NCBI GenBank assembly: GCA_963678675.1 | Contig: OY783194.1 | Span: forward strand, 34,698,278 to 34,762,277 | Direction: 5' to 3' | Length of the DNA: 64,000 bases | Source: Xiphydria camelus | Lineage: Eukaryota > Arthropoda > Insecta > Hymenoptera > Xiphydriidae | In this document: positions 2,141 to 61,446 of the stretch, piece by piece | Position numbering within the stretch: the stretch's first letter is position 1 | Layout: each line of letters starts with the position of its first letter | Notes under the pieces: model-generated | Seen by the model: only the letters and a program-made list of their open reading frames with translations | What the model was told of the DNA's origin: nothing | Databases searched by the model: none | Translations under genes and position numbers: made by a program

Positions 2141-2202
2141 CGAAACCTTTGGACGCTTCTAACAAAATAAGACTAGAGTTTCAGCGGAATCATCTATCGG
2201 CG

Positions 2203-2272
2203 GAGGATTTCGTCCTGGAGTCGGCCTGTGGACTCGTCAGTAAGACCTGGCCGACTCCTGCCTCAGACGCTC
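2203..2272 (-). ncRNA. type III hammerhead ribozyme, best-preserved copy
   Basis: Read on the minus strand, the order is stem III 5' strand, cleavage triplet GUC (2268-2266), stem I, core CUGACGA (2240-2234), stem II and GAAA (2211-2208), then stem III 3' strand (2207-2202). Stem I is UGAGGC with GUCUUA (six pairs including G-U). Stem II is GUCC with GGAC (four pairs). Stem III keeps pairs on both sides of one C-C mismatch. Cleavage is expected after the base at 2266. Loop I (2247-2259) and loop II (2216-2229) are complementary over ten bases. All invariant core bases are present, so self-cleavage is plausible but untested. Confidence 0.85.
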
Positions 2273-2357
2273 TGGTCCTCCACGATGGCGCTCGACTGTA
2301 GCGTCGCTGATATCGCAGCGCTAGCGACGCTTTAACCGTGAGAGGAGCTGGGTCAAG

Positions 2358-2372
2358 GTGGCCATCTGGCGG
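2358..2372 (-). promoter_or_regulatory. CTCF-like motif in hammerhead element copy 1
   Basis: The minus strand reads CCGCCAGATGGCCAC. It matches the first 12 positions of the insect CTCF consensus as I recall it (CCRMYAGRTGGCGCY) and then diverges. The equivalent position in the other three copies matches better. Binding is inference. Confidence 0.3.
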
Positions 2373-2375
2373 CAG

Positions 2376-3669
2376 AATTGGCACTGGTCGCTCTATTTCA
2401 CGCCAGTACACCTCGCGTCCTGGCAATAATATTCTTTCGCATTCCTCAACCACGGGCAAAATATCGTTCCCGGGATTTCCTCTCAAAAATATCAGCCGGC
2501 CACTCCTCCGAGCGTACACCGCCATATAAATTGCAAGATTGCTAGATATCGGACCGTATATCCGCGATTCCTCCGCAGACACTCGCCGCCCGCGTATTAT
2601 GCGAAGCGGGTCGGGCAAGAGAGCGAGTGACTCGTTATTTTCGCGATGGATCGACTGCACCGGCACGGAATATTAATACGGAAGCGCCGTCGCTTCGTGG
2701 CGCGCGGGAGACAGGAAGGAGAGAGGAAGAAAGTACACGCTTGTTTTTCACTGAGCCGAAGAATTATTCCAAGCGGCTCGCGAGTCCCGCGCGTGTCGAA
2801 GGCGGAGGAGGAGTAGGAGGAGTAGGAGGAACGCGCGTCCGTGCGCGCTCGCGTTGGAATACGCGCTCGGTACCGGGCTCGACGATGCGGTTCCGCGCGC
2901 TGCAGCGCCAGGCACCACCTACCGATGCCGTCATCGTCGCGTCGCGGGGTACGAAAGGGGTTACCTGGAAGGGAGAAGCGCGAGAGGCAGGGGGGGACGG
3001 AGGTCTCCGTAATGACGGGGCATAAATAACTCGGACATTTACGCGCGCATTGATTTAAGCAAACTAATGATTTCACTTTGACCGGCCGGCGAGAGAGGCC
3101 CGAAGAGAGCCGGCCCCGAGACACCGCCCCGCCTGTCATATTGACGTTTATATCCGCTCGCGTAATCAACATGTCCACGTATGACAATTATTGCCATCGG
3201 ACATGCCCCCGCGCAGTTTCGCGTTATTGCATCGGACATTGAAAAGCAAAAGTCGACGCGCGCGCACATTCGTCCGGTGTGACGCGCGCTGTATCTCGAT
3301 CTTCCGTGCAGTTATTCGCGGGAAAAGCGACGTTATCCCGGCGATTTTCCAATTCCGCACCGCGCGTTCTCCGCCGCACCGGACGTGGAAATCCGCGGAT
3401 ACGGGGAGACGGATTCGTATATTCAGTCGGAGCGTTAGCTCTGCACAGCGTCCGATAAGTCTCTGAAGGGGCTGAGCCGTAGGAGATGACATTGACGAGC
3501 TAAGCGTGGGACTTAAAGCCGAGCTCAACTCATCAGTCGGTACGCGATGCTACTTAGTATTTACCTTAGTTGGATTCGCGAGCGCCACGTGCAAACCCGT
3601 CGTGTAAGCGGAAGCTTGGCCGAGAGTGTAATAATTAGGTGTATCACGCGTCGAACTCGAGCATCTATA
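2376..3669. other. unassigned CpG-rich sequence with a GGAGGAGTA repeat
   Basis: Contains a short purine repeat, GGAGGAGTA in about three units (2805-2831). Long opposing open frames (up to 196 codons) exist but are arginine- and serine-rich and unrecognisable. I treat them as composition artefacts. No gene is supported. Confidence 0.4.
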
Positions 3670-3933
3670 TCGGTGTGCAAATTAATTTGGTGCCTTTCGT
3701 TAGAAAGTTCAACACTTATTTGTATACGATTAATATACATTTAGATTTTCATTTAAATTTTCAAAATAATCCCCGTCGTTTTCTACACATTTACTCCATC
3801 CTATATCAGGCAATCTGTGGATTCCTTCTCGATAAAAAGATGGCGACTTTGGACTACTGAAATCATAAGCAAGGCATCGAATTACGAATTAATTGATTGA
3901 TTAATTAATTTTTATCGTAATTTGCACACCTAA
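3670..3933 (-). mobile_element. internally deleted mariner transposon
   Basis: Both ends carry inverted copies of a mariner-like terminus. The right end on the minus strand reads TTAGGTGTGCAAATTAC, and the left end on the plus strand reads TCGGTGTGCAAATTAAT. Between them lies only the 3' end of a transposase gene on the minus strand. The element is about 264 bp, against the usual 1.3 kb for mariner, so roughly 1 kb is missing. TA lies outside the left end. It stands 10 bp from a family F MITE. Confidence 0.8.
3730..3867 (-). pseudogene. mariner transposase C-terminal fragment
   Basis: The minus-strand frame ending in TAA at 3730-3732 translates to about 45 residues. It contains SPSFYREGIHRLPDIGWSKC followed closely by ENDGDYFE, which is the hallmark tail of mariner (DD34D) transposases: FYR-GI--LP--W-KC---DG-YF. 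In intact proteins this is the extreme C-terminus. The helix-turn-helix domains and the catalytic aspartates are absent, so the fragment cannot catalyse transposition. The first about ten residues (upstream of the SPK motif) are less certain. Confidence 0.8.
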
Positions 3934-3943
3934 TAGATAGGTA

Positions 3944-4185
3944 CACTGAGAGAAATGAGTAGTAATGTTAACAGAACTTTTGCTTGATATGAGAACAACG
4001 AAATATTTTTATCGCGTCAACAAATGTTTGGTCGTCACAACCAAACATTTTACAAACATCGCATTGCCATAACCAACGTAAATTTGCCGTAATCAAAAAT
4101 TTGGTTGTCCCGATACAAATATTTCGTGGTCTCCATATCAACCAAAATTTGCTAAATATTATATTACCGATCATTTTTCTCAGTG
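3944..4185. mobile_element. CACTGAG-ended MITE, family F
   Basis: A 242-bp element starts CACTGAGAGAAATGA and ends TCATTTTTCTCAGTG, with TA directly outside each end. This is the target duplication expected of Tc1/mariner-superfamily elements. The interior has further inverted similarity (AACCAAACATTT and AAATTTGGTTG type motifs) but no transposase. Only one copy is seen in this window. Confidence 0.8.
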
Positions 4186-6054
4186 TATATAGATGAAGAA
4201 ATGCAGGACGAACGATTAGAATCGTGAGAATTTTTTTAACCGATTTCCGACGAGAAATCGATCGACAATATATCCCGATGATTTATATCGCACGCTTCGA
4301 CGCTTGGTGCTTTTCCGGTAGACCGCGCATCCGAAACGACTTTTGACGATAATTAATCGATCGAGACCGAACGATCGACTTCCAAAGTGGGCCGAGGACC
4401 GGCTCGATTAAAAGGGAGCTCCTCTCTCCGTCGACCCAGATGCATACCGAGCGCGCGGTCGTTCGTATTCCTAATGGCACAATCAGTACGCGGTAAGTAC
4501 ACACACGGTACTCTTATCGCGCCCCACCGGTGTATGAATATTCTATGCCGGTTAAGTATAGGTTACCTCTGCCTGACATAACACTCGTACGCGCGAGACA
4601 CGCGGACTCGTGCGTGAGCGTACGTACCGCGCGCGGGTCTGTGTACGGCGCGCGCCTCGCGCAAAATGATTAATTATTACCTATAGCTGAACCGGGGAGT
4701 CACATACGACACGGCACGAAGGACACGTCCCGCCGTTCCTGTACGGAACGCTAATGGCTTCGAAATAATTCTGATTTATGCGCCGGTAAGTAGGCGTGCG
4801 ACGTCCCGACAATCTAGAAATTCGGTTATCGCGGGCGAATTTGATTCGAGGGACAGCGAAGACGAGTCTCGAGAGACTATGAATTCCACGTGGATCTGTA
4901 TGGAAAGACATCGGAGTCGGCTAAATCATCGCTCCCGACGAGGCGGTCGTCGTATTACGATTTATGAACATTTCCTCGATAAAATATCGTTTCGTATATC
5001 GCGCGCGCGCGCGGATATATGTACGAATCGAAGAGAAGGACGACGCGCGACGGTCGTTCCTGCGGTTTCCGGGAGAAAGAAGTTGGGATTTACGAGCGAC
5101 ACGGACGCTTAATTACGGCTAAACCCGGTGATAGTGGTGTGACCGGTGCGACGCTATGTCGACGCGTTCGTATTAGGCGATATCGTCGAGCGTCGTCGTC
5201 TTCGCGGAGTTCGGCGAACGCTAAATTCGGTCACGCGAAGCGACGACTCTCGGAAGATCCCGAGGAGGCGAGCCGCCGAAAGGGTTGTCCCGGCTCTTCG
5301 GCGGGGAGGCGCGACGGCGAATGTGTTCGCGCTATCGGAAGAGGGGATCGTCGCTGGAGTGCGCGCGCGATAGATCGCAGGGGGGGTGTACTTTCTTCGC
5401 GACACCATGGACGCCTTCGTCTGGTAGTTAGTCATCGGTTGGCAATTTATCACGAGTTGCCGGGGGTCCGCGGGCTAAGCCTCACTTGCTATGCGCGATC
5501 CGGACGCGCAACCACACCAGTGATTACATATAATTACCGGCGGATTAATTAATTATACCCGTGCCCCTGCCGCCCCTCGAATCATCGGTTAATACTCACG
5601 ACCGACGAAAGTTACCGGCTCAGGGCTGCCGGACTCGTCGAGTTTGCGAAATTCCGTAATCTCGTCAGACGCTCGAAAGCGACGTCCAGAAGGCGCGTCG
5701 CGGGGAGAACCGCTCCTCCACCCGCGCTCTTCCCGCCGATCCCGATGTTATACCCTCTACGACGCGCTTGGCTCGCTGAAATGCTCTCCGGGATGCTTCC
5801 CCGTGATGGATTGTAAGAGGGGCGGGGCTGGCGGAATCACGGAGTCTGATAAGGCCGTCGAATGTATACCAGTTGCAAGTTTTCGTTTCGATTTTAAAAA
5901 TATTTTCTTTGAAGATTCCGATAAAATATCAATTTCATCTTTATTTTCGGAAGAATCGAACGAGATCTGCGTAAATCTACCGTGACACATTTATTTCCCA
6001 CTCGTAATTCGAAATTGCAAAATCTGCTCGTTGAACGTCTCTAAATCCGTTACT
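4186..6054. other. unassigned CpG-rich sequence
   Basis: Includes short CG-dinucleotide runs near 5001-5012. The 177-codon frame at 5019-5552 is arginine- and serine-rich, has counterparts in other frames and shows no domain. No gene or repeat can be supported. Confidence 0.4.
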
Positions 6055-6185
6055 TGGTAAAAAAGGTGTGTCAATTTTTAACACCATCGTGTAGTTTGGT
6101 GTAGACCTATATAATATATTTCGTATCTGGTGTCATTCAGTCTTACGCCATTGTTCTTTAACATCAAAAGTGGTCTACCAAGGTC
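6055..6185 (+). mobile_element. family B repeat, copy 1
   Basis: Contains the family B core: GGTAAAAAAGGTGTG, AATTTTTAACACCAT, TGGTGTAGACCTA, TCTGGTGTCATTCAGTCTTA and CATCAAAAGTGGT, in the same order as 19684-19795, 34020-34163 (minus) and 63339-63495. The family is about 120-160 bp with ends near ACAGTAAAAAA. It encodes nothing. Confidence 0.7.
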
Positions 6186-7244
6186 CGTATCGTCGCATTT
6201 TTGTACAGCGCAGGTACTCACAAATATCGACCGACACTCCTTATCTCATGGTCAAACGACGAGATACGAAGATGAACAAACGACTCCCAGGCGAACCGAG
6301 CCGTAAAATGTTTACACACACATCAAAAAACCCCGACACATCGCGCACCGCTCACCGTCCCGTCCTATTATTACCGGGGTTGCAAATATTCCTAAATACC
6401 TCGCGCCTCCGTACCGCTCAGAGACTCGTATCTCGATTACCACTGAAATCCCTCCATAGATTCTCGCGAGAGCCGTGTCTCGCGGATACGCATAACACGG
6501 TTCGCAGTGCAGTAAAGTAGCGTGGGTGACACGCGGCGTGATGAACTGAGGGGCAGGTGCAGCGGGCGTGCTTTACTCTAGTCGCGCGTGCACGCAAGAC
6601 GCGCTGTGCGCCGGCGAGCGAGCCACACACGCGCTTCGCGATTCGCGCGTAATGGCGCATACGCGCAACGGGAACGCTCCCGGGTGTCCCGGGCGGGCTC
6701 AAAGAGGAGGCTTCCACGAACCCGTGGCGATCCCTCAACCCTCGCGGCCGAGCATCGAGATGATGTTGTTCGACTCGCTTCGCGCGACGCCACCCCCTTC
6801 ATCCCCCGTCCAACCACGATAAATCAGCGAAACCTCCAACTCGGTGGCGACACCCGTGCATTATGCCGCGGAGGGCCTCGCCGCGCGTATACGCGCGCGT
6901 TCGCGAGGGCACGGTTTATTTAACCGGTTCAGAGACCGACGCAGCGCGCGAGGCCTCGAGGGAGAGATCTTCCTCCGTGGGAGGAGGACCGTGGAGAACG
7001 CTGCGTCAAGGAATTTGAAGGGCGAGCGCGGCGACGTCTCGGCTTCGACGAGGCGCGTCGTCGGAGCGAATTTGCGGAGACCGCGCGGCGGTGGTCCGAT
7101 TCGGGAATGTCACCGGAGAGAAAGAGAGATAAATTTTTGTTTTTTGGAATCAGCGCGGGGAAATAGGTACATTTTGGATAGGGCAGTCCAGAGTTCGATG
7201 TCAGAGTTTTCGGTTTTCGTGAAAAATTGATAAAATATCAAGGG
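6186..7244. other. unassigned CpG-rich sequence
   Basis: Overlapping frames on both strands between about 6420 and 7230 are arginine-rich and motif-free. No element or gene recognised. Confidence 0.4.
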
Positions 7245-7660
7245 TTTGAAGCTTTTGCAAAAATCGAGATCTCTGGAATCGAACTCTTGACCACTTTATC
7301 TTACGTATTTTTTCGCACTGAGTCTGAAAATCGCAGATATATTCAGGGGATCTCAAACAGGTACAGAGATGTCGATGATTTTTTGTAAAAAAATAATATT
7401 CTTGTACCTACACAAAATTAATGATATCATATTTCCCTTGAGATATCGATCCGATAACCAGACCTTTCATGATCAATATGAAAAAAATACATAAGATAGG
7501 GTAATCAGGCAAGCGATTCCAGAGATCTCAATTTTTGGCTGAAATGTCAAACATTTTTCCAATCTTCCACGAAAATCGAAACCTCTCGAATCGAATTCTC
7601 GATCATCCTATCCGATGTATTTTTTCACGGTGATTTCGAAAATCACAGATTTATCGACGA
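7245..7660. repeat. family E diverged repeat, two direct units and one inverted unit
   Basis: The sequence AAAATCGAGATCTCTGGAATCGA...TATTTTTTCGCACTGA (7258-7346) recurs in diverged form at 7570-7655 and in inverted orientation at 7480-7560. Related pieces occur near 31540-31690, 47100-47180, 53120-53300 and 63145-63190. Several copies pair an inverted half with a direct half around a GCGAAAAAT-like centre, so the ancestral unit was probably palindromic. No coding capacity and no class assignment. Confidence 0.6.
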
Positions 7661-10600
7661 AAGTTCAAACAAAGCCTCGAAACGAACGAAAGCAGTCGGA
7701 GCCGCATTCGACAAAGCGGTTTCTCCTAATTCGTATGTAAGTCGACGAATTCGCGACGAATGTAAAAGTGCCCGAGCCTCGTATAAATCGAGCGTCGCGT
7801 CGGCATCATCCCTGGTGACCCCGCTGTCCGTCCATCGCATCCATCCGGGAAAGACGTTCGCGCAATCGAAGAACAGTCTCGCGGCGACGGAGAGAGAGAG
7901 AGAGAGAGAGTGCGAGAGAGCGACGAGGAGGCGAGGGAACCGACTCTATACCACTCCGAGTCACGGGAGAACTCTTTCGATGGGCCGTGCAGTTCGCGGA
8001 AGCTAAATAGACCACGCGAAAGAGTAATTACACCGAGCGCCGTGCAGAAAAAAAAATGCGTGGCACCAGCTCTCACAGCCGAGCACTCCTTTGATCCTCC
8101 CAATGCGTTATGCCTGCCAATGATTTAAGGGCGTGTGCCCCTTCCGCCGAGCACGCGCTCTTCTCACTAACATCATGTTTAATTTGATTTATCGATGCTA
8201 TTACGCGCAATGAAAAATGGCCAAAATAGATTAAGCGCCGGTGACTCGCGGTGCTGCCTCTCTTCTTCCGTTCCCTTCCCTCTCTCTCTCTTTCTCCAGC
8301 GAGGTCGCTCGATGTGGAAGCCAGCTCTCCTCGGCTGGCCACAGCCGGCCAACTCTCGCGAAACTCGCGCGCGCCGCTCCACACCACGGCGTTCGCTCTT
8401 GTAACCGAAGGAAATTACTGCGGCGCGAACACAATTCGCCGTTTCGAGGACGTTTCGGAACATCGCGTCGGGAAAGGCGCAACGACGCGCGGCGCGAGGT
8501 GGTGACGACGACAACGACAGCGCAGCGTGCGCGTGTGCGCCGCCGTGACACGGGGCAAAAGGAGGAGCGGGTCGCGGGGATAATTGCAGGCAGCGAGCGA
8601 CGAGCGCGCAACACTGTGTGTCTCGCGGGAGGACTCGGTAATTGGACCATAAAGCAACAAAGATCGTGCGAACGATAATTAAAATATCTCCTCTCGCCTG
8701 TTTCGCGTTCCGTTCGATAGCTTCGGTTCGACTCGCGCGCGCCTGGGACGCATCGGACGTGCCTCGGGCGAAACGACGTTGGTGATCCCCGGTCGAGCGC
8801 TTACAAAGCAGCAACGGTAGTGGGTTTCTCCACGGAGAGAGAAAGAGGAGAGCGGAGGCTCGACTCGTGTGGGAAGTGTGGAAGGTGGACCGTGGGTTTT
8901 ACGAGCGTGGCGACTGCAGAGTTTCATTCATAGATGACTCGATTGATAAATTTGAGATGGAAAAACAGCGACGACAGCACAGCTGATCTTTACTGCTCCT
9001 CGGCGAATGCTAATTCTACTTTTCAATCGAGCTAATTCATCGTATTATCTACTGATGAAATTTTCCCACGATATTCTTTTTTTCGTCCACGATTTTCTGT
9101 CGCATTTCTCTATTTCTATATTTGTTTTTCTTCCGCCTTTTCGTCACTTTCCATTGTAAGAACTTCTGCGACTTCCACTCACCGCACGTTACTATGATTT
9201 CTGTTCTCTGTAATTCCGGACTCGTGAATGAGAGAGCCGAGCGCCAGCTGCCAGGCGCGCGTTTACTTCCTCTCCGAGAAGAATTAAACGCACCGAGAGA
9301 ATTTGTAAGCGCGCATCCCACCACTACGGCCGGGAAGGTGTAGCGGGCGAAAGGTAATGGTCCCGGTAATATCGGTGCTGTGTGTGGGGCCGCTGCACTA
9401 CTAGTAATTGATTGGTCATACCCTCCGTGCCATTACTCCTTCAAACCTCACTTCTGCCGGTTCTTCAGCCTTCCGTAACCCATCCGCCGGCACTTCGCCA
9501 TCGCCCGAAGGGTCAACGTCGAACGCTGCGCCACGGCTACCACCGCGAGGCGAGAGAGACGTCTCTCCTGTCTTCCATTTCCCTTTTTTTTTGGTCCCCG
9601 GTGAAATTGCCGCGTTTAAATTATAGGTGTCGAAGTTTAAGTTATCCCCCATATATCGATTTCGCGAACCGAGTTTTCTTCGGTTTCGAGAATCAGTTCG
9701 AAACCGAATGACCGCGAAGATTACAAGGGGCGCGCCTATCAGCCAATGCGTTTCGCGAGTGCAAAAGTGGAGGGAGTTCGAGAGGAGTCGCCCTCGATGC
9801 GTTAACAGCGCGATACCGAGAATATTAATGTCCCGAAAGAGGCATGGCGAATTCCGTCGGCAAACCGCACCGGTCTCGAAGCGGCAAACGCTTTTTTAAG
9901 TTTTGCGAACCTTTTTTTCGGTTATGCAATTCGTTCGGCTTTAGTGACGCGCGTCAACTGTGATTTATCGCGTTGCGATTAAAAAATTTCGAGGATTTGT
10001 ATCGAAAGTAAAATTGATTACGAGCGATCGGATACCGCATGAAGACATCCATCGTGTACTCGAATGCCGTGTGCTCGATTGCAGCGTCGCGGCGCAAAAC
10101 GAGGACCCGCGCGGAAAGAAAAGCCGGGAACCGGCGCTCTTTCTCGCGCGCAAACTCCGCGGCCAAAAATGGACACGAAGTAAGCGGTAACGCATCGTTG
10201 CCCGCGGAGCGTATTACCAATTGTACGCGATAATTATAGAATAAATAAATTCACGTCGCGGCGGAATGCGTATAATATATCTACGTCTGCCAAATGGTAC
10301 CGAGATACAGCCGTATATCACCGGGCGAGTTATAGTCTCCGCCCGGTAACTCGTTGCCGGCCGTCTCGTCGCGTTTGGCTCGAATCCACGCTCGCGTTAT
10401 GGCGCGAATCGCGCGCTCGCCCGCGAATCGAGGCCCGTTTAAAAAAGACGCGCGGCTCGCCTCGGTGAATTTGGCAGGGGACTCGCGCGGCGCGGTAGGG
10501 CGGTTCTTTAAGGAGAGCGGCGCGTACGCGCGAGGAGAGCGTTTCGCGAGGGCCATACGTCTTACGGACACGGACTTCGCGGTAATATAGAAATTCAATC

Positions 10601-10798
10601 GTTCTGGCAATTATGCGCCGCGGCTGTTATTACGGCACCGCTGTCCGTCCGTCCGTCCGTCCATATATATATACATGTAAGAATATATTTTATTGGTTTT
10701 GTTTACGACCCGGCGGTAATGCTCGATGCGACCGCCTCGTTTTGAACTTTTCATGTTTCTTTATCCATTGAAAATTAATCTACGGAAATTCATATCTA
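7661..10798. other. unassigned CpG-rich sequence with short GA and CT runs
   Basis: Contains a GA run at about 7890-7909, a CT run at about 8280-8296 and CCGT tetramers at about 10640-10660. Long overlapping open frames at 8179-8814 occur on both strands in a CpG-rich stretch, and I regard them as artefacts. No supported gene. Confidence 0.4.
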
Positions 10799-11057
10799 CA
10801 CTCGGGGAGAAGGTCTGGTTAAATTGAATACGAGCCTGATAGAACAATTATTTGAGACGATTAGGAATTTATTGAAATGGAACAAAAGTCTATTTGAATT
10901 TGACAGATGCTCTGCTAGATTCGTATTCGATTAAAAAGATATGCAAGACATCGATCTGATTCAAATAGACTTTTGTTCGATGTGAATAAGTGCCTGTTTA
11001 CGCCGAATAAATTTTTCTATCACAGGTTCGCATTCAATTAGATCTTTTTCATAAGTG
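10799..11057. mobile_element. MITE with CACTC/AAGTG ends, family I
   Basis: A 259-bp element flanked by TA on both sides (CTA before CACTC, AAGTG before TA). The terminal 40 bp are imperfect inverted copies (GGTTAAATTGAATACGAGCC against GGTTCGCATTCAATTAGATC). An inner pair, GAACAAAAGTCTATTTGAAT and its exact complement, lies near 10870-10980. No coding capacity. Single copy in the window. Confidence 0.7.
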
Positions 11058-11980
11058 TACGAAAGAGTAAGTGCGAGAAAATTTTGCACCGCATATAGAG
11101 GCCGTTACCGCGTGTTCGAATTTAATGAATCATTCTTGTAAAAAATCGAGGACTCCACGCAATTCGAGGCGGTATCACACGCGACATGCGCCAGTACCTG
11201 AGAACCGCTGCGAGTTACAGTGATGCAGCGAGCAATAATAAGTGCGGTGAAGTCACAATGCAACGTGTAGAAGTATACCAGAGCGCAGTGCCGGTAAAGA
11301 TGAAAGGTTCGCCCGAGGATTGTGTTGGGCAAGGCAAAGGGTTAAGTCAGGCTATTGATAGCTCAATAAGACAGCCAACCATTCATTCGTACCGGGACAC
11401 ACCCTTCGCGGGTGGAAAGGAGGTAGCGAGGGGGTGGAAGAGGGAGACCGAGGGAATCATCGTGCATTGTAAGATACCGATACCGTGTAATTACGCGGCA
11501 GACCCGAGCCCTCGCCATGGGAAATATACACATATCATTATATCCGAGCTTGGCTCACATGTCCGCACGGTATAAATTCAGGGTTCGTCGAAGGGTAATT
11601 ATTTTATATCGAATCATCCGGGCGGGATCGAGGGTCTCTTTCCTCTTTCCGTACGCGGGATTGCCGTATACGCGTCCTCGGTACCTCGTGCCTGCACGCG
11701 CTCGTCCCTCGGAAACGCTCGGTTCCGCTTCCGGAAGGATGAAAGGCATCGACGAGACCGCATCGGAAGTTCTCTCGTCCGGAAGAAGCGAGTAAACTAC
11801 TGAAGCGCGTTTGTTGTACGTGGAGTAGTCCAACTCGCGGAAAAAAAAGGAAAGGATCTATTGAAGGATAAGGACGAGGAAAGTCCATTTAGATGTTTCC
11901 TAGCCGATTACAGATTTTTATCAACATCTTAAATCCCTACCAGAGAGAGAGTTAAACAAATTAGAAGCACAGAGAAAAAG
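11058..11980. other. unassigned sequence
   Basis: The 129-codon frame at 11186-11575 is motif-free. No gene, repeat or RNA is recognised. Confidence 0.35.
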
Positions 11981-12015
11981 CTGTGGCGAAAAGATGTGGT
12001 CGCCATCTAATCGGG

Positions 12016-12087
12016 GGAGCGTTTCGTCCCGGAGTCGGCCTATGGACTCGTCAGTAAGGCTAGGCCGACTCCTGCCTTTGGCGCTCC
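12016..12087 (-). ncRNA. type III hammerhead ribozyme, copy 2
   Basis: Stem III is GGAGCG (12087-12082) with CGCUCC (12021-12016), six perfect pairs. The core CUGACGA and GAAA are intact, and stem II is GUCC with GGAC. Stem I is AAAGGC with GCCUUA, with the terminal pair lost. The cleavage triplet is GCC instead of GUC, a change expected to slow cleavage strongly. Loops I and II are complementary over twelve bases (GGAGUCGGCCUA with UAGGCCGACUCC). The fold is convincing, but activity may be reduced. Confidence 0.85.
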
Positions 12088-12197
12088 GTGAGGGACGGGC
12101 AGTTACGCTCTTCTATATGTACTTGTACCGTTATCGGACACTACCGAGAGCCGAGAGCCGTGGGCCGGTAGCCGCGGAGTCGAGGGCCGAGAGGGTC

Positions 12198-12212
12198 GGC
12201 GCCATCTGGCGG
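12198..12212 (-). promoter_or_regulatory. CTCF-like motif in hammerhead element copy 2
   Basis: The minus strand reads CCGCCAGATGGCGCC, a complete match to the Drosophila CTCF consensus as I remember it (CCRMYAGRTGGCGCY). It occupies the same position in the element as in the other copies. Binding in vivo is inferred only. Confidence 0.4.
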
Positions 12213-12253
12213 CCGGCCGCCGTAGCGTGACGGGTCGCCACATAGCAATTGTC

Positions 12254-14826: not shown

Positions 14827-14831
<5 letters not shown>

Positions 14832-24793: not shown

Positions 24794-25007
24794 CACCGAG
24801 AAAAATAATTAGGTTAAAATGACAAAACACATCTAGTTAAAAATGTTTAGTTATTCCAACCAGAGTACTGGTCGGTTTAATCAAATATTGACTTATTCCA
24901 ATGAAATGCTTAGTTACTCAAACCAAATGTTTAGTTATTCAAACTAAAAAGCAGTCAATTTTACCAAACAGATGGAAAAATCATGTTTCGCTAAATGGTT
25001 TTGTGAC
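24794..25007 (-). mobile_element. family A MITE, cut off by hammerhead element copy 3
   Basis: Starts with CACCGAGAAAAATAATTAGG, continues with TTAAAATGACAAAACACATC and the AACTAAAC-type repeats of family A in minus orientation, and ends abruptly at AAATGGTTTTGTGA. Complete family A copies continue there with GGTCAT, CCAGGAT and a CTCAG terminus. Here the sequence switches directly to the hammerhead element. I see no family A sequence resuming after 25250. Confidence 0.75.
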
Positions 25008-25013
25008 GGCCTG

Positions 25014-25028
25014 CCGCCAGATGGCGTC
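25014..25028 (+). promoter_or_regulatory. CTCF-like motif in hammerhead element copy 3
   Basis: Reads CCGCCAGATGGCGTC, matching 14 of 15 positions of the Drosophila CTCF consensus as recalled. Same element position as in copies 1, 2 and 4. Confidence 0.35.
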
Positions 25029-25103
25029 GACCCTCTCGGCCCTCGACTCGCGGCTCCCGGCCCACGGCTCTCGGCTCTCGGTAGTGTCCGACAACGGTAC
25101 AGG

Positions 25104-25111
25104 TATATAAG
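25104..25111 (+). promoter_or_regulatory. TATA-like box upstream of ribozyme copy 3
   Basis: TATATAAG lies 34 nt before the first ribozyme base at 25145. A pol II start 28-32 nt downstream would fall at about 25133-25140, just before the ribozyme. Copies 2 and 4 keep related runs (CATATAGAAG and TATATACC) at the equivalent place. Promoter activity is inference. Confidence 0.3.
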
Positions 25112-25144
25112 AGCGCAACTGCCTGTCTCTTACGGAGGACCACA

Positions 25145-25217
25145 GAGCGTTTAGACTCAGGAGTCGGCCTAGCCTTACTGACGAGTCCACAGGCCGACTC
25201 CGCCTCCGAAACGCTCC
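25145..25217 (+). ncRNA. hammerhead ribozyme, decayed copy 3
   Basis: Stem III is GAGCGU (25145-25150) with ACGCUC (25211-25216), and the core CUGACGA (25178-25184) and GAAA (25208-25211) are intact. The cleavage triplet is GUU. Stem I has an extra base and two lost pairs. Stem II is broken because GGGAC is replaced by GCCUC. Complementarity between the loops is kept over at least ten bases (GGAGUCGGCC with GGCCGACUCC). Self-cleavage is probably lost. Confidence 0.75.
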
Positions 25218-25250
25218 GCCATGAGACGGCGACCTCACACGTCGCTACAG

Positions 25251-51736: not shown

Positions 51737-51987
51737 GGTGAATGTTCCAATAACTAACCAAATCCTCAAATATCTCTTTATTAACTTATCGTATATTGTT
51801 CACGTGAATATCTTTATTATCCCTTTTATTTAGGTAACTATTTCTGTTAATAGAAGGCAAATCAACGTTATAATTTTATTAATAGAACTAAATATATAAA
51901 CGGTTAGGGTTTGAGCTTAACTGATTAGGAATTGAGACCCTTATGTACCTTATCATTTTATTTTCTCACAATTAGTGTACCTACATA

Positions 51988-52199
51988 CACTGAGAAAAAA
52001 ACTTACTTGATCGAAATAAACGTGCCTTTGGATAGTCCCAAGAGCGTATTTATTCGATTTAAATGAATATCGGTTGGACGCAAATATTAGATTATTGAAT
52101 TAATTAGATGTTATTTGAATCAAATCGATATCCATAAATACACTCTTGGGACTATCCAAAGGCACGTTTATTTCGATCAAGTACATTTTTGTCTCAGTG
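51988..52199. mobile_element. CACTGAG-ended MITE with about 65-bp perfect-like TIRs (family G)
   Basis: A 212-bp element from CACTGAGAAAAAAACTTACT to AGTACATTTTTGTCTCAGTG, with TA directly outside both ends. The arms (TTGATCGAAATAAACGTGCC, TTTGGATAGTCCCAAGAG and complements) are almost identical, which makes this the youngest-looking copy in the window. No coding capacity. Confidence 0.85.
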
Positions 52200-53119
52200 T
52201 ACGCTCGAAAAATAATCAGGCTCCAGATTGACTTCTCATTTGATCTCCCGAATGGTTATAAATTTACATATATTCAGACCACTTCGTCCATCCTCGATCC
52301 TCATCCTTCCATCATCCTCCGACCAATTGAGTCGCGCGTCACCTTCGATCTCGCTTCCGTTCGCCCTATACGTCGGCGCGTCTCGCCGCGATTTCCCGGA
52401 AGGTAACAAGTGGTTAACCGTAACCGCGGTAGTCTGGGGCGCGGAGGGTGTTTATAAGAAGATAAAGGTTACGTTTGATCCCGAGTCACGAGCACCTTTA
52501 TACGCGCCTTCCAGGAACAGGCCGCGCCGCCGGGACGACGCGGCACGGTTAATGGCATGAATTGACATAAAATTATTGTGTTTTGTCAAGAGGGGAGATG
52601 ACAAGTCGCTTTCTGATACGTGACTCCGGGACAATGCGTCGTTTTTGCCCTGTCAACGGGCTCCGTGAACCAATCGCGCGGCCTGTCACCGGTCACAATC
52701 GGCCAATGATGCGTTCACCGCGTCCCACCGGCGGCGGCGACGCTGCCGGTTGAAGAAAAAAAATGACGAAAACGGCTCCTGTAACGATAAAGGATTATTC
52801 TCTGTGTAACGTCGAGGAATAGCGCAGCAACGCCCCACTGCGACGAGGAGTAGGGCTCACGACGGTCGACTGCCGTCAGCAACTGCGTCACGCGTGCGTG
52901 CGTGACCGTGATTCGATATCGTAGATCAACTCGCGTAACGCACCGCGAGCGTGTATTATTATATCGAAGGTAGACTGGATGTGCGAGCGATAAAAATTGA
53001 ATCTGGCTGTACTTTGTTGTTTTATTTATCGAATACGAGGTGCGTAGTTTGAGATTCAGGGTATAAAAATTCTTTATTTCAATAAATATGTAATTTTCGG
53101 AATAAGAACGAAAAAATAC
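52200..53119. other. unassigned sequence
   Basis: No gene or repeat recognised. Confidence 0.3.
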
Positions 53120-53300
53120 GAAAAGGTCGAGCGATCAATTCCATCGATTTCGACAAAATATCATGCGAAAAACGAAATTTCTGGAATCGATTTTTCGATG
53201 ACCCTATTCGATGTATTTTTTCACGCTGATTACGAAAAACAAGGTTATTAGGTCGACATCTTGAAGAAACTATGAAATATCAGCGATTTTATGCACGAGA
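53120..53300 (+). repeat. family E diverged repeat
   Basis: An inverted half (GGTCGAGCGATCAATTCCAT) is followed by a direct half (CGAAATTTCTGGAATCGATT, GATGTATTTTTTCACGCTGA, TATCAGCGATTTTATGC), the same organisation as at 7245 and 31540. Confidence 0.55.
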
Positions 53301-53747
53301 CATTTTTCTTTCCTCAGAAAGTACCTAACTGGTATTTCTGATATTCTTGGAAAAGTACATCATTAAGGTGATCAAGAGTTCAATTCCATAACAAATGATA
53401 CAGTCAGCTGCAATCATATTTTATCGGAGCACCACACTCGTGCTGTATACGTAAATACAGGTTATCGATGAAGGGACGAGTCGTCGCGGGGAGAAGGACG
53501 GATCGTACGACTATTCAGAATGCTCGGCTCGCGCCGTAATTCGATTAACTTACGTGAAAATGTGCTCGTTTGTAGCGCGCATATATAATAAATGAAATCT
53601 TCTGCATAGTAATTCCATCCGGAATACGAAAGTAGAGGATACGCCGCCGGGGGTGGTGCAGGCGGCGGCGGCAACGGCGATGGTGGTAGTGGTGGTGGTG
53701 GTGGTGGCGCGATACCGACATCGGTACATGGGGCGAGTGGACGTAGC

Positions 53748-53781
<34 letters not shown>

Positions 53782-55015
53782 CGAAGGGACGCGGAGATAG
53801 AGAAGGCACGGAGGAGGAGGATTAAAAATGTAATCCAATAATAACGTGTCTCCGGCGCGTACGTAAGTACGCGAGCACACACGACTCTCGCGAATACACG
53901 CGCGCGTTACATAACCATCCGCACATCCCATGTACATATCTATCCATAGAACGATGTCCCACCGCGCCACGAATCTATCTCTAGGCTACACCACGGTGGG
54001 GGTGGGTCTTGAGGTGGTGAAAATATTACGATGTCCGCTGCTACCGGATGGCCGCGGAATGGGAAAAGGGGAAGGAGTGGTGAGGGGGGTCGGAGTCCAT
54101 TAGCAGACCGGTGAGGATGTGTGCGATTACACACCCCCGACAGCCCCACTCAATAATGCATCATCCCTCGCCTCTCCTCGTCTCCAGTCCACACCACGTA
54201 TGACCACTCTCGGAGTCGCCTCCTTGCCATCGTCCCTTCCGTCCCCTCCCCCCATCCCCCTCCTCATTCGCCCGTTTCGTCGTACCGCCCGGGTGCTTAT
54301 TACCGCCGCGGCTTTGATTTGTAAAGGGTGGAGGGACGAAGAGAGAGAAAGATAGCGGGCGCGAGGGAAAGAGAGAGGCAGCAGTGAAAGCTCCGTCTTT
54401 CAAAGAGAGAGCTCCGTGCGGCGCGCGCGCGCCCCCGTGCTTTCATCATACATACGATCCGACGCGAACTTGCAGTCTGAAAACGCCTACCGATGTTGGA
54501 AAGATGTTCCGCTGGATGCGGAGGAGCGGACGGACGCATAGACGTGGCAAAGAGCGCGCGGCGAACGACGCGGGGGTCGGGGGAGGTCATTTCTGCATGA
54601 TCTTTGACGGTCGAACTGGTCCAGAACTCGTTTCAGTCGCGCCGGGACGGATTTATGCGCGCAAGGGTATATGTAACGTGTATAGATACGAATTGCTAGA
54701 ATTATGTATGAAATGATACTGGAGGAATACTTGGTGCACCTGACTATATATATCTACGGAGTCGTTCACCTGGGGGAAAGTTCGGGAGAGATCCCTTCGC
54801 CACACTCGCTGCCCTGCAACTCCCCCGCGCGCGGATTAGCGGATAATCTGTACCGGAATGAGAATTTGTTGAGAGAAATGCGGAAATACTAATCTCTCGA
54901 TGAGAGAGAGAACCGCACGGATACCTACTCGTACTCGCTCATCGGAGACCACGCGGTTTCCGGTTAAACCGAGGTTGTGACCCATGTACAGAGAGAGTTA
55001 CCGTTTTCGTACGTA
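53301..55015. other. unassigned sequence with GGT/GGC and GA microsatellites
   Basis: A GGT/GGC triplet tract (53646-53708) and a GA run (53757-53782) are close together. Histidine- and arginine-rich frames across them are artefacts. No gene supported. Confidence 0.4.
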
Positions 55016-55284
55016 CACTGATAATGAGAGAAATAACTTGGTTAAAAATGACAAAACACATCAGGTTAAGCGAGTTCAGTTACTCTAACCAAAACATTAG
55101 TGAGTTGAATCAAATAATTAGTTATTCCAATTACACGTTTAGTCATTCTAACTATATGTCTAGTTATTCTAAGCAGAAAATGGTCAGTCTAACCAAACAG
55201 ATGGAGAGAATCCATATTTTACCAAACGATTTGGTTATGGTTACCAGGATTTTGGTTAGATCGACCAGGTTATTTTTCTCGGTG
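55016..55284 (-). mobile_element. family A MITE, complete copy
   Basis: The ends CACTGATAATGAGAGAAATA and TTATTTTTCTCGGTG border the family A interior in minus orientation (AAAAATGACAAAACACATCA, TTCTAACTATATGTCTAGTT, ACCAAACAGATGGAGAGAAT, ATTTTACCAAACG). TA precedes the left end. About 269 bp, slightly longer than the 25899 copy. Confidence 0.85.
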
Positions 55285-56536
55285 AAGATTACGCTGCATT
55301 CTTTAGAGCGTTCTTCCGGGTCGAATGACTCGAAGTATGATAACTACAGGAATGAGACGAGATTTTCTAATCCGTTTCCAAAGATCGTCGTAAAAACCTT
55401 GGAATCATATATATTTTCACATAGGTATATTATATTTCCGATCGCATAATCAACGCTTTCATCTTTGGAAATAATTCCTAGAGAGAGTCTCTCTCTTTCC
55501 CACCAAACCTCCCGATTAACAGCGTTACACCCGAGACGCGTCTCCTCGCGTCATCCCTCCCCATGTTCTCGCCACCCCTCGCGCGGCGTCGCCACGGCGA
55601 AACACATTTTCTCCGCGTCTCCCCGAGGGCCTCTCCTTTGTCTTTCATCTTTCGGCATCGAAGCACCCCCTCCTCCCCCTGTTCCGCGCGCGTATCCAAT
55701 CAATCCCGCGTCCCGAAGAGCAGAAGCAGGCGCGACAGGACCGCGCGCGGCCAACACCTCGTGACTTATAATCGCATTTCTCGCTGTCCCACCCCGCGAC
55801 AAAACCGACCCTCCGCTAATGGCCGCTGGTAAAGCTTTTAGCTAACCGAGGTCCGCGCGCCGTTCGCCTGTCTCTGATCTATTCCTCGGCTAATCTGCTG
55901 ATTATACGCGACCGGCGCCCGGCCATCCGTTATTGGCAAGCGGAACGCCGTCGGGAGCCGCCGTCGTTCGGGAAAATCGCGGAAATGTGTTTTCGGAAAG
56001 TCGTTCGAGCGTTTAACGGGCGGTGCTTCGGCGGGACCAATGAGGTGACGAATTAAATTGCCTCGAAGGACGCTTCGCCGCATATTTAAGAGGGGTTCGA
56101 GAGAAATCCCGAAGTTTCGACCCCCGCCCCCCTCCTCCGAAGAGATCTCGGTTTTACCTCGTCTCCTTTTCGGTCTCGTCGACTTTCTCGAGCGTCGACG
56201 GATATCGCCCCGCGCCGTTGCGAGACCCCGGACAATTACTCCGCATCGATAACATCGGGAGAATTAACCTACTATCACTTTGGTTCGCTGCAAGTTATGT
56301 TTCAGCACGTGGGAAAATAGAGTCCCCACGCGCGCGCACAAGTAGCGTTCGCAACGCGGTGCCGCTGTGCGAAGAAGGTTGCCCAATGATCGTCCGATAG
56401 CGGTTCGAGATCGTTGGAAACCCACTTTTCCACGAACCGCGCTCGGTTGTGAATTCTCATTAGCCGTGAAGAACTCGAAGAGACGCGTATCATCGACCTG
56501 TTCGTTCTACGTCTATCCGATCGCTTCGCTCCTATA
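55285..56536. other. unassigned CpG-rich sequence
   Basis: No gene or repeat recognised. The 99-codon frame at 55465-55764 is proline- and serine-rich and motif-free. Confidence 0.35.
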
Positions 56537-56767
56537 ACTGGGAGAAAGAAAAAGTGGTATATTTTCAATTAGATCAGCGTTTACGGGTGGGAAAATGCAG
56601 AATTTGTTACTGCGACTGATAAATTTGGTTATAACGAGTAACGACTGTTTGAAGGAAACAGACTGTAGTCCATTCGAGTGAATTGCTAGTCCAAGTAACT
56701 CGATCTGCATTCCACCACACGTAACCACCGACTCGGTCAAAATTACTACATTTTTTTCTCTCGGCGT
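56537..56767. mobile_element. family D MITE, copy 3
   Basis: Left end ACTGGGAGAAAGAAA, right end TTTTTTTCTCTCGGCGTA. The interior GAATTTGTTACTGCGACTGA, TAAATTTGGTTATAACGAGT and GTTTGAAGGAAACAGACTGT aligns closely with copy 1 (1531-1755), in the same orientation. Confidence 0.8.
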
Positions 56768-59700
56768 ATCGAAGAGCTCGCGAGTGGGCGTTCAAAGTTT
56801 ACAGTAGCGCACGAGAGAGGTCAACCGATCCAATCGCATTGCCGCGATTCCCCATAAGCCCACCCAACCGCGAATCCACGCGAGACGAAGACGATACCTT
56901 AATCGCGCGTCGACGTTAAGAAGATAAACGCTTTGAACAGCTGGGTGTACCGCACACAACGATGTATATTCATGAAGAGCAAGAAGCCGAGCCAACCACT
57001 CGTTAGTTCTTCCGAGTGATAATTTATTTATCTTTCTGGAACACAGTCTCTGCAGAGCAATTCCAGCTCGGCTGAACGTTCATTGTTAATTCCCGCCAAC
57101 CAATTATGGAAAAATACGCGGCGTTCACGAGTGCACTTGAGCTCGAAGATACCCCGTAACATCGGCACTGGAGACATTAGCTGCCTTTTAGTCCCCATTA
57201 GGCGCTCCAGTCGAACCTCTCCATCCGAGAGTTTTCCCAGGTCTTTTCTCCGTGTCGATAAATCCTGCATCGCTCTGCCTGTGTTCTATCCTGCGAACGG
57301 TTCGCAGGGGAAAAAACAGGAAACAAAAGACGGGAAGGACCGACTACCGTGCACCGACTCTTACGCTGGACGCAATTAAAACTTTTATGACGTGGCACTA
57401 AAATGCAAATAAAGCGTCGCCTTTTGCCAGCTTTAGCGATACGCGTGTTACGCGTAATGAGCCACGGCGATTTACCGGGGAGCCGTTGTTAAAAGTGAAT
57501 TGTAGAGAAGGGCTCGACGGACCTTCGTCGAGTCTCCTTTAAATGTTTGAACTCTTGACCTATATCGGTCCAGCGAATCGATATTTCGTCCCTTTAATCA
57601 AACAGCGAAACGAACGACGGTAGCTCAGTTCGAATGAGCATTACATCGAGTAACGAAATTAATTATTTCTAGAAGCAAAAATTCATTTAGACGGAATAAT
57701 TGCAATTAAAGTAGAACCGAAGAAATACCGCACTTCTACCACCATCAGTGTGCGTGACTCGCACACACCGCGTACCAATTTCGCGAAAACGGCTCGACCT
57801 TACGTCACCGGCGCGATCTCGCGGGATAGGCGCGGATACACAGAGTGGCGCGAACGTTGATTGCTTAGCAATTAGCATACAATGAGAATTGTCGGATACA
57901 TCGGGCGAGCAGACGAGCGAACAAGGAGCACCCGTCACTCCTCCCTCCCCGTATCAATCGCCACCATCGGAGCCCACCCCTGCCTCTCTCGCCCTGCGCG
58001 TACGTCTGCCCGTTTGACTTAATCAGTAATCGCTAATTGCCAGCCCGATGCACTGGGCTAACGGACGAGGAAACGTATGCAAATCGCGCGAGGAATTATC
58101 CGCCGCCTCCGCGCGCGATAGGACAATTAGACGGGCGAGTATTCTTACTGGCGCGTATAAAGCCATTTCCGGTGCACGCTCGCTTCGATCGCGATCGATT
58201 TAATCGACGACCCTCGAGACCCGCGGCGCTTGGTCGTTGCTGGCATTTCCGCGGTGAGATTTTTGGGGTAGATACGGATGGTCGCGTCTTTTGAAATTTA
58301 TTTTTTTCCGGAGTTCGAAAAAAAAAAAAAAATGCGTAAAGAATCATGCCCATGAAGCGCATCCAAGAACCGAAAATATCGCAAGCTTATTCAAGCCTCC
58401 GAAATCGCAGTCTAATTTTCGCGTTCCGAAACACCCGTCAATTTTTCCTTTTACGCGAATTCTGAAAGATTCAAGCCCTCCGCCTCGCCGCGCACTTCGC
58501 GATACACGGTACTTCGCGACTCGAGCGACGCCAATTTCCGGTTTTTCTCGCGCGCCTCGCTCTCGCAGGGAACGCAGAATCTACCTGCGTTCGTTAAAAT
58601 GCCCCGACCGAGTCCTCGATCTACGCAGGCAGAGGTGTGTGGCGCCCGTATACCAAAGGCGCGAGAAGACGGGCGTGGGCAGGGTATCATTATTCCCTTT
58701 AAATAAAATAATGGGAAAATTCTAGGCTTTGTCGATGCGGGCGCACGTGGAGGGCGAGACGAAATGGATGCACACGCCGCACGCGGTATTCGCGTCGCCG
58801 TCGCGACGCTCTCTCTTGCTCGAATTTTTTTACTCTCCCCTCTCCTCTCGGCGCCCTGTGCGCTCCCTCTCCATCTCCTCCGTCGCCTTCCGCTTTTCAT
58901 CCGACTCCCTCGTCTCTCGTTACACTCGTTAAATCCCCGGGCATTCTTCGAACACGCGCGTCGCGTCGTCCGCGGGCAGGTATTCCCGGTGTTTCGAGGT
59001 AAACATTTTTTCCGAACGCCCGGTCGTGTCCAGAGATTCGCGCTGCTCCTTTTTCAGCGCGATCGGAAGTCCTCGGCGTGGACCCGACGACGTGACGAAG
59101 TCCCTCTCGCGCGAAGAAGGTGCGGATATTTTACGGCCGTCGGTTGCGTGGCGATATTTCAGCCTCTTAAAATCACCATTATTATTGCGTCTTATCGACA
59201 TGCTCTATCATCCTATCAGAGGCATTAAGGCGGCACTGTTAAGGGGTTCGAGTGAACCGACCATTATAAATGCTATCAGGCGTGTTTTACAAACCGTGGT
59301 TCTCAGTGGTTACTGTTGAGCCTGGGCCATGGGGAGGAAGTGGGGGAGGTTGGGTTTATTCGAGTTAAACAACTTTTCTCTCTCGTCCGGATGCGAACAT
59401 TTCTTTCAAAATTAAGCTTCAAAGTATGAAACACATCGCGGCGACGCGATAAATACGGTGTGATTAAAAAGGGGGCGTAACCGCTCGGCGATTTTTCCAT
59501 ATCGTCGACGCCTCGCGTTTATTTTGCTTTTCTCTTTCTTCCTTTCTTTTATCGGTCGACAATTAAAATAGCCGGCGAGTGCCACGAATGACGAGAAGCT
59601 CGCGCGTCCAGCGAAAAGACAGCGAATTAGGGTCTCGTGACCACCGCGGACGAGGAGCTCTGTTATTATTGCCGGGAGAGCCCGTGTCAGTTGGTCGCCA

Positions 59701-60337
59701 CTGACTGGTCCGATGCGGTGAGCACGACAGTGGCTGGGGGGAGCATGAATATTCATCCCCCTTGTTCCGAGGAGGACCGCGGCGACGCGCTCTTCGGCAA
59801 CGAGGGGGAGGAAGAGGAGCGCGACGGAAGCGCGGGCGGCAATAGCGAGAGATTGATAACAGATACCGACGCGCCAAAGTCTTCGGCTTTTTCACAATGT
59901 TTGCGTTGAACGAGCGGACGAGGCGATAAGCGAGGGCAGAGGGGGAGAGGGTTACCGCTACTCGGTCATCACGTTTTTAATTAATATTGATAAGTTTTAT
60001 GGCGTGCTCTCGCTGCGAGGGACTTGATATCTCGCAGACGGCAGCTGCGCGGCTGCGGATGAACGTTTAATAAGAATTGTGAAAATCAACGAGCGGCGTC
60101 GTCGCTCGTTCCTTCCTGTATTTCGCGTCAACGCATCGTTCGATCGGTTCGAGATCCACGAATTTTCGAGAATTTCACTCGCCTCGAATATCCGCGAAAC
60201 AAACGCAGCTTCAGCTTTTTTCTAATTTCGCATTCCGAGCAATTCATCGGTTCCGCTATATTCGGAAAATATAACCGGGTGAGGGAAGAATAAAATGAAA
60301 TATAAAATGAGGACGTCAAAGAGAGGGAGCCTCCCCG
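56768..60337. other. unassigned CpG-rich sequence
   Basis: About 3.6 kb with no repeat family recognised. Frames of 144-154 codons at 58291-59228 overlap frames on the other strand and lack motifs. No gene supported. Confidence 0.35.
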
Positions 60338-60860
60338 ACCAGAAATTTCGATACTTGTCACATCAGGGCCGGGTCAGGCAGCCGGATCTTGGAAGTCAGG
60401 CCCTTATCAGGCAACCTTACCCGGCCCTGGTCAGGTATGTAACGCATTGTCACATCAGGGCCGGGTCCGGTTGCCGGATCCGGCCCGGATCCGGTAACCG
60501 GATTCGGCCCTGATGTGACAACGCGTTACATACTTGATCAGGGCCGGGTCAGGCTGCCTTACCCGGTCCTGACGTGACAAGTATCGAAATTTCTAATCGG
60601 GCCCGGATCCGGCCCGGAGCCGGTTGCCGGACTCGGCCCTGATGTGACAACGCGTTACATGCTTGATCAGGGCCGGGTCAGGCTGCCTTACCCGGTCCTG
60701 ACGTGACAAGTATCGAAATTTCTGGTCGGGCCCGGATCCGGTTACCGGATTCGGCCCTGATGTGACAACGCGTTACATGCTTGACCAGGGCCGAATAAAG
60801 TTGCCTTATTCGGTCCTGACGTGACAAGTATCGACATTTCTGGTCGGATCGGGTCGGGTC
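60338..60860. repeat. modular palindromic GC-rich repeat
   Basis: Built from inverted and direct copies of two modules: TTTCGATACTTGTCACATCA plus GGGCCGGGTCAGG, and ATGTAACGCRTTGTCACATC plus AGGGCCGGGTCC. The segment 60436-60532 is a nearly complete palindrome of about 97 bp. CTGATGTGACAACGCGTTAC recurs at 60510, 60639 and 60757, giving unit spacings of 129 and 118 bp. The first and last modules are inverted, so the whole block is roughly a large inverted repeat. No coding capacity. Confidence 0.75.
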
Positions 60861-60943
60861 TAAATTTCCCATACGATAATTGTTTATTTTTATATATAAA
60901 CAAAATCGCTTTCAAAAATCGCTGTGGCAGACGAGTGAGTTCG

Positions 60944-61013
60944 TCATTTCGACCCGGAGTCGGCCTGTGAACTCGTCAGTAAGGCTAGGCCGACTCCTGC
61001 CTTAGACGCTCTG
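60944..61013 (-). ncRNA. hammerhead ribozyme, copy 4 with stem III lost
   Basis: The cleavage triplet GUC (61007-61005), stem I UAAGGC with GCCUUA (six perfect pairs), core CUGACGA (60978-60972) and GAAA are intact. Stem II is GUUC with GGUC, one mismatch. The 3' strand of stem III (AUGACG) no longer pairs with GAGCGU. Loops I and II are complementary over at least ten bases. Self-cleavage is probably weak or lost. Confidence 0.8.
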
Positions 61014-61072
61014 TGGTCCTCTTAGGTATATAGTACTGTACCGCCGTTTTACTACCGAGAGCCGAGAGGGTC

Positions 61073-61087
61073 GGCGCCATCTGGCGT
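61073..61087 (-). promoter_or_regulatory. CTCF-like motif in hammerhead element copy 4
   Basis: The minus strand reads ACGCCAGATGGCGCC, 14 of 15 positions of the recalled Drosophila CTCF consensus, at the conserved element position. Confidence 0.35.
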
Positions 61088-61446
61088 CAGGCAGCTACGG
61101 CAAGCCGGACCCGGCATGCCGGGCATATGCCTGATCAGGGCCGGGTCCGGCGCAGCTAAGGCAAACCGGATCCGGCATGCCGGGCGTATGCCTGATCAGG
61201 GCCGGGTCCGGCGCAGCTGAGGCAAACCGGATCCGGCATGCCGGGCGTATGCCTGATCAGGGCCGGGTCCGGCGCAGCTAAGGCAAACCGGATCCGGCAT
61301 GCCAGGCGTATGCCTGATCAGGGCCGGGTCCGGCGTAGCTAAGGCAAACCGGATCCGGCATGCCGGGCGTATGCCTGATCAGGGCCGGGTCCGGCGTAGC
61401 TAAGGCAAACCGGATCCGGCATGCCGGGCGTATGCCTGATCAGGGC
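61086..61446 (+). repeat. 61-bp tandem array, about six units
   Basis: Units contain AGCTAAGGCAAACCGGATCC, GGCATGCCGGGCGTATGCCT and GATCAGGGCCGGGTCCGGCG. The repeat advances one base per 60, giving a period of 61. The first unit, next to the hammerhead element, is the most diverged, and the inner units differ by single bases. Each unit has three perfect short palindromes (CCGGATCCGG, GGCATGCC, CTGATCAG). The array is followed by GGGCCTGATGTGACAA and AAATTTCTGGTCGG, modules shared with the block at 60338-60860. Confidence 0.9.

Follow-up and report, generated by a model that had tools for sequence, protein, structure and literature searches.

Four hammerhead ribozyme motifs lie in a 64-kb stretch of the Xiphydria camelus genome (contig OY783194.1, positions 34,698,278 to 34,762,277; hereafter, the window), and on sequence grounds all four are solo or broken long terminal repeats (LTRs), the worn remnants of a small mobile element. 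The family to which they belong is real and abundant, and is best read as a family of animal LTR retrozymes. The original prediction from the window is partly supported by the genome-wide analysis, namely in proposing a mobile element that is dispersed, non-autonomous and equipped with a type III hammerhead. We consider it probable that the family comprises small non-autonomous LTR retrotransposons that are built like the LTR retrozymes of plants and spread by way of a self-cleaved circular RNA.

Element anatomy and ribozyme

The genome searched comprises 357 Mb in 38 contigs, and all copy counts are lower bounds. At least 739 copies of the 56-nt ribozyme consensus were found at up to three mismatches (none for a reversed control), together with at least 169 junctions between an LTR and a primer-binding site (PBS). 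Among the approximately 100 matches listed, the ribozymes often occur in pairs. The spacing from hammerhead to hammerhead is 609–865 nt in 23 of 24 paired loci and 1020 nt in the remaining one (L036), the 3′ LTR of which contains extra sequence.

Complete copies measure approximately 0.86–1.08 kb without inserts and are composed of a non-coding, GC-rich centre flanked by two LTRs, each with the hammerhead inside it. One type of LTR is 214 bp long (TGTGGCGG...GCCAAA); the other is 250 bp long, starts with TGTAGCGG or TGTGGCGA and ends with TCGCCACA. Paired LTRs are 96.8–100% identical where measured. The PBS, TGGTGACCCCGACGTGAT, is situated 1 nt downstream of the 5′ LTR, and a polypurine tract (PPT), GGGGGGAGTAC or a near variant, lies immediately 5′ of the 3′ LTR. 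The unit of about 240 bp that had originally been taken for the whole element corresponds to a solo LTR (214–261 bp with the window copies included). The longest frames in two of the centres encode 196 and 117 amino acids, the former without a Pfam match. In an alignment of 15 LTR regions most rows agree in their start, in two boxes (one similar to CCGCCAGATGGCGCC, the other to TATATAAG), in the ribozyme and in a short tail; the box similar to CCGCCAGATGGCGCC resembles a CTCF site. A TATA-like box begins 41 or 47 nt upstream of the ribozyme in three LTRs.

Exact 4-bp target site duplications (TSDs) flank 23 of the 25 elements parsed. The exceptions are L010, where three of the four bases agree, and L034, which has none. 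The flanks of L040 and L024 are identical at 700 of 700 bases; with these two counted once, exact duplications are present at 22 of 24 independent sites. The duplicated sequences are varied, with ATAT and TATA each at one of the 24 independent sites, and a further element outside the parsed set (L030) shows GCGA/GCGA flanks. In L034 (769–1850, read on the minus strand) an exact copy of the 18-nt primer site follows the 3′ LTR, and the end looks as if the copied end of the primer had been retained or a multimer cut short.

The family consensus contains all core letters of the hammerhead (CUGANGA, GAAA and UH) and stems of six, six and four pairs. The topology, as judged on the consensus and not on the window copies, is type III: loops close stems I and II, whereas stem III is open-ended. 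The consensus stems given in the original prediction (UAAGGC/GCCUUA, GUCC/GGAC and GAGCG/CGCUC) are correct and have many exact occurrences in the genome. Loops I and II are 13 and 14 nt long and share an 11-bp complementarity, by which they could dock as a tertiary lock or keep the ribozyme switched off.

The state of the ribozyme was assessed in a sample drawn blind to it, consisting of 38 of the 65 exact LTR/primer-site junctions listed, with L092 and L097 kept out. Core, three stems and the 11-bp loop-loop match are intact in 29 of the 38 and exactly consensus in 25; nine are damaged, including L064 and the decayed L073. This sample favours young copies because it was drawn from exact junctions of the 250-bp type with unmutated ends. 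In L064 the interior of the ribozyme appears inverted between its own inverted repeats.

Across 31 distinct gap-free copies, changes per site amount to 0.3 in the core, 1.07 at paired positions and 2.67 elsewhere, a contrast that in part reflects how the set was assembled, since ribozyme words with up to four changes served to find most of its members. Copies with gapped alignments are omitted from this set (among them window copies 3 and 4, L014, L055, L057 and the 5′ LTR of L050, whose ribozyme has a one-base insertion and a U25-A46 pair changed to C-G). Between families, identity is 0.901 in the ribozyme and 0.710 and 0.650 elsewhere, a suggestive difference subject to a similar selection bias. 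Differences between the LTRs of single elements (2 of 1470 positions in the ribozyme and 35 of 3457 outside it; L011 skipped, L030 and L036 excluded) were rejected as evidence, as these copies had been preselected for a near-perfect ribozyme.

A proposed circular RNA route and its alternatives

The element RNA appears able to cleave itself by the hammerhead inside each LTR, and we infer both cleavage and a circular RNA. Transcription driven by the TATA-like box would start just upstream of the ribozyme and continue through the 3′ LTR. Cleavage after GUC by both LTR ribozymes would then release an RNA of approximately 610–870 nt with a 5′-hydroxyl, a 2′,3′-cyclic phosphate and no terminal repeats, which a host RNA ligase could circularise. 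With tRNA-Trp as the presumptive primer at the PBS, a Gypsy-type element bearing a DUF7041 gag would supply the reverse transcriptase and integrase to copy the circle for more than one round and insert the product. A circular template is proposed because, once cut, the unit has no repeated ends by which ordinary strand transfer could proceed, and yet ribozymes are retained intact.

The choice of primer follows from the PBS, which complements the 3′ end of tRNA-Trp. It is identical at 18 of 18 letters to the PBS in the Rfam family RSV_PBS, with a match far under the threshold (18.6 of 47 bits, E 0.33); Rous sarcoma virus (RSV) is primed by tRNA-Trp. Among the places returned by a pattern search built on the complementary tRNA end, two have a CCA-anticodon arm ahead of that end and are truncated tRNA-Trp-like copies (L101 and L102); no intact tRNA-Trp gene was found. 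ARAGORN called no tRNA in 17 element loci, although the program also missed both of these truncated copies. The two copies share the same 3′ flank but differ in their 5′ partner, and one is, by eye, fused to another tRNA-like sequence.

Nine loci of autonomous type carry the same PBS (L042–L045, L047–L049, L051 and L053), corresponding to seven distinct loci because L047 and L051, and likewise L049 and L053, are approximately 99% alike. They have open frames of 187–391 amino acids, and Pfam matches to the gag domain DUF7041, a protease or a reverse transcriptase (RVT_1) were obtained in eight of the nine; no match was found in the frame tested of L045. Six loci have DUF7041. Three have a match to a protease or a reverse transcriptase: L042, one of the six with DUF7041, L047, and L051, where the match is under the curated cut-offs. 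The gag of L042 has 24 relatives, of which three are named: from the ants Formica and Polyergus and the moth Helicoverpa. By sequence, the insect character of the DNA was judged from these three. A scan for the hammerhead core in the nine loci found none. They match the retrozymes over 18–22 nt at the PBS, and beyond it neither the centres nor three LTRs gave a significant match to them. We regard these loci as candidate helpers of the retrozyme family.

Tandem copies are consistent with a circle copied more than once round. In L092, four LTRs and three units lie inside a single pair of CTAT duplications, and in L097, three LTRs and two units lie inside a single GGGA pair. A further array of three units (L052, 398–1950) mixes both LTR subfamilies and has an inverted piece at its end, an arrangement that suggests template switching.

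An alternative that we regard as unlikely is an ordinary terminal-repeat retrotransposon in miniature (TRIM), with a linear transcript bearing the repeat R at both ends and an active hammerhead that serves otherwise, such as in limiting read-through or forming 3′ ends. The LTRs, PBS, PPT and TSDs are by themselves TRIM anatomy, and such elements are known in Hymenoptera (PMC3532108, PMC10886601; these and the other articles are cited here from excerpts). However, cleavage in both LTRs would remove the terminal repeat needed in first-strand transfer, yet most 5′ LTRs in the blind sample (29 of 38) have kept the ribozyme intact. Moreover, neither AATAAA nor ATTAAA occurs in the three LTRs tested, nor within 420 nt on the 5′ side of the PBS at any of four retrozyme-type loci (L010, L023, L046 and L050), whereas all nine autonomous-type loci have a poly(A) signal in that interval, the nearest 39–160 nt away.

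Several results weigh against a self-cleaving, circularising element. Covariation, put forward in the original prediction as a check, gave no support: in 30 distinct copies that are 97% alike (the 31 less one further rearranged variant), none of 27 pairs has changed on both sides, which we read as not refuting the ribozyme. The fraction of paired cells is 96.5%, compared with 96.7% in shuffles, and a slid control alone is clearly lower (22.6–44.2%). The 11-bp loop-loop match is paired in 97.0% of cells in the same copies, also with no double changes. Pairing is retained in 27 of 58 one-sided changes (0.466 observed, 0.368 expected), a weak excess. The Rfam model Hammerhead_3 (RF00008) gives a score of 21.7 bits against a threshold of 48.5, with the alignment in a different register, and within the window Rfam gives no hammerhead at E ≤ 1. 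The loops usual for type III are 4–8 nt long in the excerpt of PMC7936874. The pseudoknot-free minimum fold is a hairpin on the 11-bp repeat (−21.4 kcal/mol alone, compared with −15.8 for the hammerhead), so that cleavage may be slow or conditional. Unequal recombination could equally yield the multimers L092 and L097. Finally, exact 24-mers of the ribozyme are absent from the viral and prokaryote collections, where insect genomes are not expected.

The dominance of this hairpin in computed folds, together with the lack of covariation in the hammerhead stems, would also suit a family in which the conserved feature is the 11-bp inverted repeat, as a hairpin or a DNA element, and the likeness to a hammerhead is incidental or dead. 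We give this little credence: the core sites, on which a hairpin does not depend, belong to the least variable ones (the selection caveat above applies), and a core with 5 + 4 + 5 pairs is never encountered at zero to three mismatches on either strand of 30 random 64-kb controls. A small SINE-like (short interspersed nuclear element) unit of about 240 bp without LTRs and with a type III hammerhead would match the 248 and 261 bp of the window copies with clear ends, but is scarcely tenable, as these copies align to LTRs that flank complete elements on both sides, together with a PBS, a PPT and 4-bp TSDs.

On balance we lean towards the fuller proposition that LTR retrozymes exist in animals, here as a ribozyme-bearing TRIM family whose self-cleaved circular RNA would be copied by a Gypsy-type reverse transcriptase. 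Cleavage would substitute for the poly(A) signal and terminal repeats, and a loop-loop helix of 11 bp, which exceeds in length all those in the literature excerpts, would lock or switch the hammerhead.

Relation to known elements

The resemblance to plant LTR retrozymes extends over most of the element. In both, the two LTRs carry a type III hammerhead and flank a non-coding centre with PBS, PPT and 4-bp TSDs, and the unit between cleavage sites is several hundred nucleotides long (PMC4918200). The unit of L010 is 785 nt with 60.8% GC, and plant retrozymes likewise exceed 55% (PMC7229834). Plant elements have only short boxes in common with Gypsy-type elements (PMC4918200), and the same may be true here, to judge from the match at the PBS. 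A transcription start upstream of the ribozyme has been mapped in Nicotiana retrozymes (PMC12029980) and is predicted for the insect family. The differences are the animal host, a tRNA-Trp rather than tRNA-Met primer site, LTRs of 214–261 bp rather than 300–400 bp, and candidate partners that carry a DUF7041 gag. In addition, the plant ribozymes, as excerpted, have short loops with non-Watson-Crick contacts, in contrast to the long loops and Watson-Crick match described above. A tRNA-Met primer and a plant host are traits of the LTR retrozymes described so far, and not of the mechanism.

With the metazoan non-LTR retrozymes (PMC7229834) the family shares an animal host, non-autonomy and a hammerhead, as well as a circular RNA that is demonstrated there and presumed here. 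Those elements differ in their type I hammerheads, short tandem repeats and low GC content, and have no LTR, PBS or PPT according to excerpts of PMC7229834 and PMC7761336. Type III hammerheads have been described in termite and toad hepatitis delta virus-like RNAs and in dipteran genomes (PMC7936874), and these share with the present family the occurrence in insects and a Watson-Crick pseudoknot between the loops. They have a longer helix I, an extra hairpin and a pseudoknot of approximately four pairs, unlike the insect family; the excerpt gives no placement in LTR elements and no hymenopteran example of the architecture.

PbTRIM of a harvester ant (PMC3532108) and Helenus (PMC10886601) are likewise small non-autonomous hymenopteran LTR elements with 4-bp TSDs, and some hymenopteran Helenus elements also use tRNA-Trp. 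PbTRIM differs in its tRNA-Leu primer and AT-rich ATAT targets; the LTRs of Helenus contain a tRNA-like sequence. The excerpts ascribe a ribozyme to neither element, and that on Helenus just cites plant retrozymes.

In the open-licence literature searched, no title or abstract opening reports an insect LTR retrozyme. PMC7761336, as excerpted, raises the possibility that plant retrozymes came from insects. It describes no such element, but refers to type III elements of insects as the subject of work in preparation, and others may therefore know of them. An abundant animal LTR retrozyme, if confirmed, would break the division drawn in PMC7229834 and PMC7761336 between plant LTR retrozymes of type III and animal retrozymes of type I. 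It would imply either convergence or the trace of an inter-kingdom transfer, and would offer a tractable animal system for the reverse transcription of circular RNA templates.

Window copies, inserts and insertion sites

The CTGACGA...GAAA core is present at all four places originally predicted in the window, with coordinates off by 0–2 nt. Copy 1 is an LTR fragment (2191–2281, minus strand) surrounding a hammerhead at 2203–2272, in which the single stem mismatch is a C-C in stem III and G-U pairs preserve stem I. Copy 2 is a solo LTR of 261 bp (11982–12242, minus strand; TGTGGCGA...TCGCCACA) with flanks GCTA/GCTT that match at three of four positions; in its hammerhead (12017–12086) U16.1 is replaced by C and the first pair of stem I is gone. 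Copy 3 is a solo LTR of 248 bp (25002–25249, plus strand) with the TATATAAG box and flanks GTTT/GATT, again matching at three of four, and its hammerhead remnant (25145–25216) retains the core and stem III. Copy 4 is a damaged solo LTR with a TATATA box (60947–61098, minus strand), whose match to the family LTR L014 stops at 60947; stem II of its hammerhead (60942–61011) has one U-U mismatch and the 3′ strand of stem III is missing.

The claims made for the stems hold in part. Stem III is indeed paired in copies 1–3 (5/6, 5/6 and 6/6), and copy 4 has lost it. Stem II, said to be present in all four, is complete in copies 1 and 2 and essentially absent in copy 3. In the second hairpin (stem I), copies 1 and 4 keep every pair and copy 2 all but one, and in copy 3 most of the stem is disrupted. 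None of the four is an intact hammerhead. With a strict descriptor of type III, which demands the core and 5 + 4 + 5 stem pairs and was run at up to four mismatches, no perfect hammerhead was found in the window; copy 1 was matched at one mismatch and copy 4 at four, with copies 2 and 3 unmatched. As 30 first-order random sequences of 64 kb, searched on both strands, give no match at zero to three mismatches and three at four, the descriptor would not by itself set copy 4 apart from chance.

Adjoining copy 4 are a 61-bp tandem repeat and palindromic repeats spaced 118–129 bp (window positions 61030–61508 and 60395–60849). The palindromes hold the two best Rfam microRNA matches of the window, both sub-threshold.

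Inserts resembling miniature inverted-repeat transposable elements (MITEs) are found at the TAA of the cleavage site GTCTAAGG in L030 (737–1080), L046, L052 (390–400) and L055 (150–165). For L030 a TAA duplication and inverted ends are demonstrated; the termini of the others are similar by eye. The ribozyme sequence TCTAAGG thus looks like a hot spot for what is presumably a Harbinger-like element. Insertions beginning precisely at the cleavage site in L052, L030 and L055 had been considered as fossils of cut RNA, a reading withdrawn in view of the MITE-like insert in L030 and the similar GGCCC termini at the junction in L052 and L055.

In three groups of loci (L023/L097/L037, L025/L031 and L011/L026) the elements are inserted at, or a few bases from, the same spot of shared repeats. 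Some of these insertions are in opposite orientation, and an integration hot spot is possible; L023 and L097 have the same orientation and could represent one duplicated insertion.

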